From Candidatus Kapaibacterium sp. (GTDB lineage Bacteria; Bacteroidota; Ignavibacteria; Kapaibacteriales; UBA2268): a stretch of 36,558 nucleotides of DNA. Below, one piece after another: positions 10,940 to 26,682 of the stretch. Both the position numbers and the translations under genes were made by a program. The DNA lies in contig JAPLFL010000087.1 in NCBI GenBank assembly GCA_026390695.1, positions 1 through 36,558 of the forward strand, in the 5' to 3' direction. The notes under the pieces were generated by a model. It did not search any database, was not told the origin of the DNA, and saw only the letters and a list, made by a program, of their open reading frames with translations. How positions within the stretch are numbered: position 1 is the stretch's first letter; each line of letters starts with the position of its first letter.

Positions 10940-11028
10940 AATGAAGAATTAAAAAATGCAAAATGCAGAATGGTTCTTTAATGAATAATATAATTTGCAT
11001 TTTGAATTATACATTTTACATTATAAAA
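10940..11028. repeat. AATGCAAAATGC-type imperfect inverted repeat
   Basis: AAAAATGCAAAATGCAGAAT on the left is answered by TTTGCATTTTGAATTATACA and TTTTACATTAT on the right, giving a long imperfect stem directly after the permease stop. This type of tract is common between genes in Bacteroidota-like genomes (from memory). It may act as a weak terminator or as an RNA-stabilising 3' hairpin; no T-run follows. Confidence 0.55.
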
Positions 11029-11067
11029 GTTCTTTGATAGATTTTACTTGTTTTTAAGGTTTATAGG

Positions 11068-11213
11068 CTTTTGGTGCCGTTTGCTACACTTTTGAAGCCT
11101 TTCGCTACACTTTTGAATGCGCTTGCTACACTTTTGAATAAGTACGCAATGCTTTTGCTGTGATTCAAAAGTGCATCCAAAGACTTCAAAAGCTCAACCA
11201 AGGCATTCAAAAG
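11068..11213. repeat. 21-bp-period array A, five direct units then three inverted units
   Basis: The core CTTTTG recurs at exactly 11068, 11089, 11110, 11131 and 11152. Units two to four share CTACACTTTTGAA. After 11163 the core appears inverted, TTCAAAAG, at 11164, 11185 and 11206, again 21 bp apart. Left cores at 11131, 11110 and 11089 can pair in register with right cores at 11164, 11185 and 11206; the innermost pair is 11 bp (CACTTTTGAAT/ATTCAAAAGTG). A period of 21 equals seven codons, and both strands have open frames through the array. Plus: heptads such as LLKPFAT and LLNALAT, then FKS heptads in another frame. Minus: one open frame from 11279 to the TAA at 11061-11063 that carries LLN-type heptads followed by FKSVA-type heptads, but with no ATG. 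Confidence 0.85.
11074..11163 (+). CDS. Possible heptad-repeat microprotein (array A, speculative)
   Basis: A 29-codon frame from a GTG (or a TTG one codon earlier) to TGA. It reads nearly four hydrophobic heptads of the form LL-[NK]-x-[FLY]-A-[TM]. A weak TAGG lies 8 nt upstream of the GTG. Against it: very short, no ATG, no strong ribosome site, and the repeat structure of the DNA could produce the peptide pattern by itself. In favour: the same peptide pattern, in the same codon phase, is encoded by array B from different DNA. Confidence 0.2.
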   Translation: MPFATLLKPFATLLNALATLLNKYAMLLL

Positions 11214-11418
11214 CGTATCAAAAGGGTTTTTATGCGATTTTAATTGTTTTTTGTTATATTTATATTTAGGAGTGTTTATTTATGAATCCATGCTGAACTT
11301 TGTATGTTCACCTCTAACTTAGTTAACACAATGACGCGCGACCAGACCGAATTTACGGCAAGCGTGAATACATAATAAAACTAAAAGAATATTTTATTAA
11401 TTAATTGAAGGAATATAT

Positions 11419-12060: not shown

Positions 12061-12088
12061 ACTTACTATTATAAAGATACTCTTACCT

Positions 12089-12114
12089 CGTTACCAAGCT
12101 CCTGCTTAGTAACG
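12089..12114. repeat. Hairpin with GCTCCTGCTT core (copy 1)
   Basis: CGTTACCAAGC-TCCT-GCTTAGTAACG: 11-bp arms with one mismatch. It is the first of two adjacent hairpins after the reductase-like gene and is related in core to the copy at 15478. It may serve as a 3' RNA structure; no T-tract. Confidence 0.75.
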
Positions 12115-12125
12115 GATAAAGAATC

Positions 12126-12151
12126 TGTTCCCAAGCAGGGGCTTGGGAACA
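12126..12151. repeat. Hairpin with GCAGGGGC core (copy 2)
   Basis: TGTTCCCAAGC-AGGG-GCTTGGGAACA: perfect 11-bp arms, 4-nt loop. Its AAGC...GCTT core resembles the first hairpin, with the loop in the reverse-complement sense (AGGG against TCCT). GTTCCCAAGC palindromes are a known dispersed repeat type (from memory). Confidence 0.8.
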
Positions 12152-24664: not shown

Positions 24665-24853
24665 TGGTTAATTATTAATGGTTAATTGTTAATGATTTAG
24701 AAATCCTTTCAAAAATAAAATATAATCATCTAAATATATTAATATTATATAAAAAATAATAATGGAAATATCCATCATAATATTATCCATCTCTCCTAAT
24801 ACTCATAACTCATAATTAATTACTCATAACTCATAATTAATAACTCATAACTT
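24662..24853. repeat. Low-complexity intergenic repeats: TTAATGGTTAAT and CTCATAA tracts
   Basis: Right after the hydrolase stop, TTAATGGTTAATTATTAATG is followed by a further copy. At 24801-24853 a unit of 20-21 bp (ACTCATAACTCATAATTAAT) is repeated 2.6 times. Same word family as at 5193 and 7441. Lies between convergent genes; no terminator with a GC stem is visible. Confidence 0.7.
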
Positions 24854-24915: not shown

Positions 24916-26139
24916 TTAAGCCGGATTGACCGGAACATCCACAAATACTGCCGAACATGCCGTGCTTTCCAAGTAATCATTCACCGCAACGATGTAATAA
25001 TAGAATCTTTTGTTCTCAATCGACTCCTCAGAAAACGTATTTGTGCTCGCAAGCTCCATATATGAGTAAGTACCAGCCGATGATCCTACATTAACTATGC
25101 TTCGGAATATCTTATATCTCGTTGCTCCTGCCACAGAGTTCCAATTTACACTAATAATAAGCGGTGCGCTCGATCCAGATAAGCCAATCGTCAAATTAGA
25201 AGGCTTAGAAAGTGAATCATAATATGTAACGTTCAATATAGAACCGAAACTTCCGTATCCATTAGAGTTTCTTGCTCTCACACGGTAGTATTTTATAGCG
25301 CCGGATTCCGGTATATAAACAAAAGATGATGCTGAATCAGCATAAATCTCCATCCAATCTGCTCCATTAGAACTAATTTCCATCTGATAACTTGTTGCGT
25401 TCGTCACAATATCCCAAGTAAATGTATTTGACGAATAATTATATGCCAAATTAACCGGAGCTGTCAATGAACCACCTCCACCATTCGATGGATATAGTAA
25501 ATAGAATTCAATTTTAGCCGGTGAATCTTTGAATATTAGCTTAGATGCGTTGCTAATCTTTACCATTGAATCCCAAATCTTGTTATATGCAATCGCTCGT
25601 TCCTCTGATCTCACGTAAGAATGCTTAATAAAGTCCTGTTGTATGTTAATCTTCTCCGTTAAATCATTAAATAAAGTATCTAATAGCGTAATATCGTTCT
25701 GAATAAAGCCCGCTGAAATCAAAGTTGACTTATATGTTACCGAATTAGCTGAACTATATGCACTTTGAAGCAGATTCATCATCTTTAATGGCACATTTCT
25801 CGCCTTAGTATATAAATTGCTACCAAATACTTTCAATATCGCATCCGAATCCGGCCATGCCATTCCGATATAAAATAATAGCTTTTGATAATGATTACGT
25901 GCTAATACCATCTGTGCCTCTACTTCGCTTGTATGGTATGTTTGCATGTTCAAATCATTCTCATTTGTTGGTATTGCGCCTGCAGCTTCGATATCATCTA
26001 AGAAATCAGCAGCAAATGGTGATGCAAAAATGGGAGAAGTAGCCGTAAAAGCTGTCTGATCGACTACTAATTCACTATGGAATAAGTATGCTTGTGTACG
26101 AGCATCATCAAAACTTTTTGCAAATTTTTGTTTAATCAT
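24916..26139 (-). CDS. Protein with helical N-terminal domain and two fibronectin type III domains
   Basis: 407 aa; GGAG precedes the ATG. No signal peptide, lipobox or membrane helix, and no T9SS tail. Residues 1-215 are largely helical (VEAQMVLARNHYQKLLFYIGMAWPDSDAI, RNVPLKMMNLLQSAYSS) with no recognised fold. I recall similar N-terminal domains before FN3 repeats in Bacteroidota. A Gly linker (220-223) leads into FN3 domain one (about 226-306: APVNLAYNYSS...SYQMEISSNGADW...YYRVRARNSNGYG) and FN3 domain two (about 311-404: PSNLTIGLSGS...YKIFRSI...YYYIVAVNDY). It is probably a protein- or polysaccharide-binding scaffold; location uncertain because FN3 domains are usually extracellular. Downstream of the array-B region. 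Confidence 0.8.
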   Translation of the reverse strand: MIKQKFAKSFDDARTQAYLFHSELVVDQTAFTATSPIFASPFAADFLDDIEAAGAIPTNENDLNMQTYHTSEVEAQMVLARNHYQKLLFYIGMAWPDSDAILKVFGSNLYTKARNVPLKMMNLLQSAYSSANSVTYKSTLISAGFIQNDITLLDTLFNDLTEKINIQQDFIKHSYVRSEERAIAYNKIWDSMVKISNASKLIFKDSPAKIEFYLLYPSNGGGGSLTAPVNLAYNYSSNTFTWDIVTNATSYQMEISSNGADWMEIYADSASSFVYIPESGAIKYYRVRARNSNGYGSFGSILNVTYYDSLSKPSNLTIGLSGSSAPLIISVNWNSVAGATRYKIFRSIVNVGSSAGTYSYMELASTNTFSEESIENKRFYYYIVAVNDYLESTACSAVFVDVPVNPA

Positions 26140-26299: not shown

Positions 26300-26461
26300 A
26301 TGATTTTCATAAAAGGCGCTGGCGTCTTCTTATATCGCGTCGGAACCTTCTTAAATGATGTTGGAGTCTTCTTAAATGGCGTCGATACCTTCCTAAATAC
26401 TGTTGCTGTCTTCTTAAATGCTGCTCTGATCTTCTTATATATTAAATTAGATTATTATTGA
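26300..26461 (+). CDS. Candidate heptad-repeat microprotein (array B)
   Basis: 53 codons, ATG to TGA, covering array B. Predicted hydrophobic protein with seven-residue repeats of the form F-L-[NY]-x-V-[GDA]-[TV], for example GTFLNDV and GVFLNGV, closing with FLYIKLDYY. Hydrophobic residues recur at fixed heptad positions with Asn/Asp/Gly between, so a membrane-active or self-assembling helix is possible. AAAAGA lies close before the ATG, a weak ribosome site. Opposing evidence: the opposite strand is also open (FKK heptads) though without a usable start. The same heptad pattern is encoded by array A. Unlike any family I can name. Confidence 0.35.
   Translation: MIFIKGAGVFLYRVGTFLNDVGVFLNGVDTFLNTVAVFLNAALIFLYIKLDYY
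26315..26440. repeat. 21-bp-period array B, six direct units
   Basis: Six contiguous units with cores CTTCTTA or CTTCCTA at 26326, 26347, 26368, 26389, 26410 and 26431, exactly 21 bp apart. The CTTCTTAAAT part is conserved; the other 11 bases vary (GGCGTCGATAC, GATGTTGGAGT and others). No spacers, so it is not a CRISPR. The conserved and variable columns fall in codon register in the plus frame. The minus frame gives heptads such as FKKTPTS and FKKVPTR. Confidence 0.9.
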
Positions 26462-26682
26462 TCATTTATTAATCAATTTATAATTTAGATTGCAAAATAT
26501 ATTTGTTTAAATAATGAGATTTGATTTTCAAAGAACTATGTTTGTTATAAACTTATAATCGACTTTATGTATTGATTCTTTACATTTATATTTGATTCTT
26601 ATAATATTTGTTCTATTTGATCTCTATATATAATTGAATTTCTCATTAGAACATAATTAGATATAATCTTAATATATATTGA

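Follow-up and report, generated by a model that had tools for sequence, protein, structure and literature searches.

Tandem 21-bp arrays preceding one Bacteroidota gene family point to a possible unrecognised control element that keeps its length, not its sequence

In several Bacteroidota genomes, members of a gene family encoding proteins with a helical domain and FN3 domains nearly always have a tandem array of 21-bp units in front of them, and comparison of the arrays with one another showed that the units keep their length, not their sequence, which points to an unrecognised control element. Our tentative reading, which we take seriously but stop short of calling probable, is that selection acts on the exact 21-bp length and not on the sequence, so that the array would be a sequence-blind ruler carried and rebuilt with each gene copy, sometimes as inverted half-arrays such as array A described below. 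Regulatory repeats are usually recognised by their sequence. In these arrays the sequence varies freely while the unit length holds to the exact base pair in several genera, partly in other classes of the phylum, and the one gene family concerned occupies more than 40 loci in this genome, fragments included. Behind such a pattern would stand either a new sort of control element or a repeat-generating process that has a fixed 21-bp step. The literature that we searched, which lies mostly outside the subscription journals, gave no description of such 21-bp arrays.

Array A and its surroundings in the window

The window, that is, the whole stretch of DNA analysed (36,558 nt of Candidatus Kapaibacterium sp., contig JAPLFL010000087.1), carries an array on each strand, A and B, with the following features.

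11028-11037, plus strand: boxA-like element AGTTCTTTGA at the head of the array A leader (exact-word comparison with the 16S leader)
11068-11138, plus strand: left half of array A, 21-bp units with the core CTTTTGAA followed by GCTACA (repeat detection)
11139-11162, plus strand: degenerate turn joining the halves of array A (gap between the matched arms)
11163-11226, plus strand: right half of array A, inverted 21-bp units with the core TTCAAAAG (repeat detection; contig comparison)
11227-11281, plus strand: AT-rich leader end with a Shine-Dalgarno-like AGGAG at 11268-11272 (identity of 11201-11291 with contig 85)
11282-11362, plus strand: decayed 5' end of a helical-plus-FN3 gene, ATG at 11282 (tblastn and blastn)
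24916-26139, minus strand: intact 407-aa family member with a helical domain and two FN3-like stretches, downstream of array B (ORF)
26306-26440, minus strand: array B, 21-bp units, unflipped (repeat detection)
26528-26537, minus strand: boxA-like element of the array B leader (exact-word search)

Array A is composed of direct 21-nt repeats at 11068, 11089 and 11110 and inverted 20-nt matches at 11163, 11184 and 11205, with a spacing of 21 on both sides. This bears out an earlier note on this DNA, which had described an in-register inverted repeat of three 21-bp units facing three inverted units. The arms of 63 nt each (11077-11139 and 11163-11225) are 71% complementary and lie 23 nt apart, and the best 42-nt inverted match is 31/42. 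Judging by boxA before the array and AGGAG and the ATG after it (11268-11284), all on the plus strand, plus is the evident sense direction. An Rfam scan of the whole window gave 0 matches at the gathering score, and array A was assigned to no known RNA family.

Using blastn, we found 100% identity over 91 nt (11201-11291) with the start of contig 85, on which the ATG corresponding to 11282 opens an intact 311-aa gene, and 92% identity over 11290-11362 with codons further inside this gene. A tblastn match of the family protein covered 11277-11375 and was interrupted by stops. The remnant in the window has kept its start codon, has a short internal deletion right behind it that leads to a frameshift, and has lost the sequence past about codon 38. 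Because the identity with contig 85 includes the ATG and nothing more of the gene remains, sequence comparison identifies array A as the 5' leader belonging to one decayed member of a multicopy gene; with the window gene lost, array A is probably now a relic. Contig 49 ends in a 94% copy of the entire array A leader, in which the left half is the most divergent by eye, and the right half is letter for letter the same on contigs 49 and 85 where these overlap. Judging by the overlapping contig ends, contigs 49 and 85 are probably two halves of a single locus. The array on contig 61 shares an array A arm and matches array A on the opposite strand at 81%. The 407-aa protein behind array B has 24% identity to the contig 85 protein (E 9e-12), stands in the family alignment, and is matched twice in its FN3 part by the family query.

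Other short repeats were seen nearby. Repeats of 7 nt (TACATT/TGCATT) lie immediately 5' of boxA at 10953-11022, and likewise on contigs 25, 49, 81, 94 and 116. ACTCATA repeats of 7 nt with a 21-nt higher order occupy 24800-24852 of the window and also occur at locus L079 (contig 121), where they come after the AGTTCTTTGA site. A short interspersed inverted repeat of the TTACCAAGCTCCTGCTTAGTAAC type lies at 12080-12150, 3' of a dihydrofolate-reductase-like ORF, and a similar piece trails a truncated gene on contig 81.

The gene family and its tie to the arrays

The family proteins have a helical N-terminal domain that matches no family, and after it either one FN3 domain or two. In the proteins scanned, Pfam and NCBIfam gave no family at cut-off, PADLOC gave none, and no toxin family was matched, that of the ToxN/AbiQ type included. 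The structure predicted from three sequences (mean pLDDT 61) is reliable for the FN3 domain only, and the 50 matches shown by the fold comparison were mostly FN3 domains; the helical part, modelled at low confidence, could hide a fold. Phage families gave weak matches only, between the FN3 part and major tail proteins, and a viral origin is unsupported, with 0 of the 126 candidate stretches of viral_contigs encoding a relative.

Searching this genome with the contig 85 query, we obtained 54 matches at 43 loci, fragments included, and one further locus (C34b) was found through the boxA search. Matches at 1e-5 were present in 13 of 60 relative genomes (this one included): the family proper occurs in eight (G000, G003, G006, G012, G014, G032, G043 and G058), and by match range G007, G017, G018, G024 and G042 have the FN3 part only. 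Thirteen of 345 genomes drawn from the phylum matched at 1e-10. Among named genomes one MAG was matched, Bacteroidetes bacterium Dive96_bin10.128, with two loci resembling those of G006; these were left out of the counts, as was a match on a Clostridia contig limited to the FN3 part. A 213-aa protein encoded downstream of a different 21-bp array, with 15 matches in this genome, gave a profile match over 94 N-terminal columns (probability 77%, E 2e-5), and by its sequence it is possibly a distant relative of the family.

In the 500 nt upstream, a 21/42-bp array was found at 37/39 family loci of this genome, 38/41 family loci of six relative genomes, 12/18 loci of the distant 213-aa type and 7/14 loci from other families and classes of the phylum, compared with 4/196 control ORFs of this genome, or 3/195 after removal of one that is the 213-aa gene; these counts use cut-offs set after seeing the data and are non-independent, many family loci being duplicates of each other. 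In no locus set did more than 2% reach the cut-off at periods 18-20 or 22-24. The loci without an array at the cut-off were C25b and C120 in this genome and G014:C119, G043:C2a and G043:C61 (array further upstream) among the relatives; arrays were weak or absent at 7/14 loci of the wider draw (among them G094, G229 and G310) and at 6/18 of the 213-aa type. Seven loci with less than 300 nt upstream (C85, G012:C37, C357, C587, G043:C54, C82 and G014:C5) are not part of the association count. C56, C25c and C76 (contig ends) and C74b (a C-terminal fragment) were dropped before the open-frame, variation, inverted-match, folding and association counts, and two G058 loci with partly masked leaders (about 110 N each) were dropped from the folding, motif and association counts. 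The cassette so delimited by sequence consists of boxA (for this genome, in some of the copies), the 21-bp tandem array, a short AT-rich stretch with a Shine-Dalgarno-like site, and a gene encoding a helical domain plus either one FN3 domain or two. Over a 400-kb sample of this genome, 21 was the commonest tandem period (13/47 arrays). AGTTCTTTGA followed by 21-bp arrays was also seen at L083 (contig 129), L068 (contig 98) and L059 (contig 69), where the gene downstream is a different one or no family gene follows.

To describe the arrays themselves, we compared the units of 90 arrays with a lag-21 run of at least 63 nt and units matching 15/21 ungapped, a choice that under-represents irregular arrays: 564/570 unit-to-unit steps were exact multiples of 21, and adjacent units differed at 16.8% of sites (1,888 substitutions over 536 steps). 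Since 21 bp corresponds to two B-DNA turns of 10.5, the arrays have the helical spacing of tandem operator arrays, as far as spacing alone goes. The unit sequences differ between paralogs, and no general motif that could be a conserved recognition sequence was found among the 90 units; the rare words that they have in common, CGGAA (13/90) and GCTTCA (7/90), are both above shuffles. No 10.5-bp composition pattern was found inside the unit, and phased A-tract bending was therefore rejected.

boxA, inverted arms and folding of the leaders

In this genome GTTCTTTGA stands in the 16S leader, 114 nt ahead of the 16S start, and both window arrays carry a word identical to this rRNA boxA on the gene strand. 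The exact GTTCTTTGA word was found in the sense direction within 650 nt upstream of 16/40 family loci of this genome and at 0 in antisense, and boxA is the most sense-biased 8- and 9-mer of these leaders among words that are not extremely AT-rich. The genome has 61 AGTTCTTTGA sites, compared with 16 of the reversed word. We scanned periods from 10 to 39 in the next 550 nt past 60 distinct AGTTCTTTGA sites, and the 14 top scorers for 21 bp (12 distinct arrays, two site pairs sharing one array each) were all best at 21. These results suggest that the leaders are transcribed in this genome. As in rRNA-type boxA leaders, where NusB/NusE bind, the same GTTCTTTGA word heads a long stretch before a gene, but here 21-bp arrays and a protein gene follow, and the arrays of relatives are mostly without the word. 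PMC5725501 gives the gamma-proteobacterial boxA consensus as GYTCTTTAANA.

Among the relatives, the boxA word was found at 2/48 family loci, and boxA was rejected as a universal part of the cassette; because it is rare there and the arrays are kept, it is a local addition. The 16S leader of G006 carries the word, it was not found near the 16S of G014, and no other word was clearly enriched upstream of the arrays in G006, G012 and G043. The 17 distances from boxA to the ATG gave R 0.47 at 21, no better than several other periods, and this periodicity was set aside. A TAnnTTTG-like word, looked for as a promoter motif, lies within 62 nt before boxA in 5/18 cases and was not used. At L074 and L035 (contigs 116 and 11), AGTTCTTTGA is followed by a C-rich interspersed element (AAAATCCCCCCTGCCCCCC) that is repeated within the locus.

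The inverted form of array A was compared with the rest of the family. An inverted match of at least 31/42 was present in 13/91 upstream regions, compared with 3 in a mirror (non-complement) control; at 28/42 the counts were 43 and 34, so only the high end of the scores is informative. By reading, C75a and G014:C119 among the 13 are other inverted repeats and not array flips. In the subclade of paralogs sharing at least 66% identity with the contig 85 protein, C49, array A itself (C83A), C25a, C81a, C81d and C110 reach 31/42; C61a has 30, C81b fails with 27, and C56 is without upstream sequence. Three orphan arrays (C87, C116 and C57) and two remnants (G014:C99 and C91) get to 31/42 as well. 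The inverted array seems to be a derived form found mainly in one paralog subclade. With halves delimited by eye, arms matched their own partner at 0.83 on average, compared with 0.68 for others, and seven of 11 flipped arrays (C81d, C25a, C110, C81a, C87, C61a and G014:C99) matched their own arm best. The arms of array A tie only with the near-duplicate C49, those of C49 tie with array A and contig 61, and for contig 61 and C81b the own partner is not the best match. Own-arm matching would be expected from selected pairing, and equally from homogenisation after inversion. The conservation of the flip and of its pairing, on which the earlier note had made its proposal depend, is therefore found at about ten other loci with different units and fails at contig 61 and C81b; inversion, which the note had asked about as a possible rule, is not one, since most 21-bp arrays of the family are unflipped and fold no better than shuffles.

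Over 17 arms, we summed 31 G.U pairs on the sense strand compared with 38 A.C mismatches (14 and 23 for the nine clearest flips of this genome); G.U being not above A.C, there is no sense-RNA signature. Folding of 11025-11290 gave z -5.68 for the minus strand and -1.50 for the plus strand, and array A alone (11061-11230) gave -6.5 and -3.3. When 73 family arrays were folded against shuffles, the median z was -0.44 in sense and -0.35 in antisense, and 12 sense and 15 antisense arrays were below -3; no structure common to the family leaders emerged, and by ordinary folding, which leaves out pseudoknots, most arrays are unstructured. The strongest folders were the flipped C81a, C25a, C87 and C110 (z -9.7 to -15.7 on both strands, 40 shuffles); some unflipped arrays, such as G012:C487, C13 and C107, were also below -3. 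In the minus-strand fold of array A the stem is more continuous than the 8-11-bp pairs separated by 13-nt loops that the earlier note predicted, and array A folds far better as minus strand, whereas the evident sense is plus.

A possible control platform and its alternatives

We propose, as a possibility with somewhat more doubt than confidence attached to it, that each array acts in cis as a platform from which the gene downstream is controlled. The units would be putative tandem binding sites exactly two B-DNA turns apart, so that copies bound side by side share one helix face. They would be read by a protein that either accepts differing unit sequences or changes along with them, and this protein may be the one encoded in the cassette or a partner of it. 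Here the platform seemingly lies inside a long untranslated leader, where boxA would let RNA polymerase carry through it, and in array A the second half would have been turned round, as a derived form found mainly in one paralog subclade. The association counts at all four locus sets, the rarity of neighbouring periods, the steps kept at multiples of 21 between units that differ in sequence, and the sense-only boxA of this genome argue for such a platform; the absence of a 10.5-bp pattern and of a common recognition sequence, a boxA link confined to this genome, and the members with weak arrays or none argue against it. Iterons and plasmid centromere repeats are likewise helically spaced short direct repeats beside one gene. 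Such tandem operator arrays conserve the repeat sequence, whereas here the length alone is kept. CRISPR arrays are also untranslated repeat arrays behind boxA, but the arrays here have no spacer pattern and their units vary from locus to locus.

The arrays at C95, C52, G014:C99 and contig 129 are regular beside broken or absent genes, so their regularity needs no working gene, and a mutational process would explain it equally well. Slippage or unequal exchange in 21-bp steps could regenerate functionless arrays that are carried along with cassette duplication, which also agrees with the variation of units between paralogs, with end units that look more degenerate by eye, and with the three long arrays of the 400-kb sample, one of which leads a 213-aa gene and two of which have no recognised family gene just downstream. 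We consider this by-product unlikely, though it deserves attention, because the arrays are strongly tied to one gene superfamily, partly in other classes of the phylum, and because neighbouring periods and 1-bp steps are nearly absent despite many substitutions. Alternatively, the cassette might be mobile or copied, with the array marking the end from which copying or insertion starts, which would leave 3'-truncated copies: the many matches in one genome, the patchy occurrence, and ten remnants of this genome that contain the N-terminus only, compared with a single C-terminal part unexplained by a contig end (C74b), would fit. No transposase or recombinase was noticed in the cassette as delimited here, however, and the arrays differ widely between most copies, which leaves this explanation improbable.

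An RNA hairpin reading, starting from the folding proposed in the earlier note, would have the flipped array transcribed and its long stem controlling termination, stability or translation. Four strongly folding flipped arrays, own-arm matching in seven arrays with different units (two more tie), and transcription implied by boxA are in its favour. Since most family arrays are unflipped and unstructured, we rejected it as a general function and kept it for the flipped subset; there, G.U pairs not above A.C, the better fold of array A on the strand opposite the gene, and the lost arm matching at contig 61 and C81b make it a rather improbable reading. TenpIN is a further type III toxin-antitoxin locus in which repeats are followed by a gene. 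ToxIN and CptIN likewise have tandem repeats directly upstream of one protein gene, and the many dispersed copies, many of them decayed, and the patchy occurrence would also suit a toxin-antitoxin-like locus. This is nevertheless very unlikely, as the 21-nt units have no conserved sequence or common fold by ordinary folding, the leaders of this genome carry boxA, the helical-plus-FN3 proteins scanned match no toxin family, and the E. coli ToxI repeat is longer than 21 nt according to PMC8860590. The coding of heptad peptides, hydrophobic and then basic in array A, had also been suggested from a minus-strand frame (11279-11064), which is indeed open over 72 codons and reads INTPKYKYNKKQLKSHKNPFDTLLNALVELLKSLDALLNHSKSIAYLFKSVASAFKSVAKGFKSVANGTKSL with no M. 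An open antisense frame is shared by C49, C81d, C25a and C81a, and open sense frames exceed column shuffles (136 compared with 106.6, sd 6.7), an excess not borne out by stop trinucleotides, which match the dinucleotide expectation. The variation is not concentrated by codon position (0.4226 in 72 runs, null 0.4433, sd 0.0076), array A has no start codon, C110, C87 and C81b have no fully open frame, with stops in all six frames of C110, and the main units of C121 and C92 are stopped in all three sense frames. On the codon-position, stop-frequency and C110 evidence we rejected heptad peptides, to which we give hardly any credence; the heptads look like the arithmetic of a 21-bp period. In such genomes, 21-bp arrays explain heptad open frames in both directions, which are probably not genes.

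Gene remnants of this genome and its relatives are mostly N-terminal, and C-terminal-only ones away from contig ends are almost missing. At L121 (contig 95), the N-terminal 35 residues are joined to an apparent C-terminal end of the 407-aa type, so that an internal deletion may have kept both ends of the gene.
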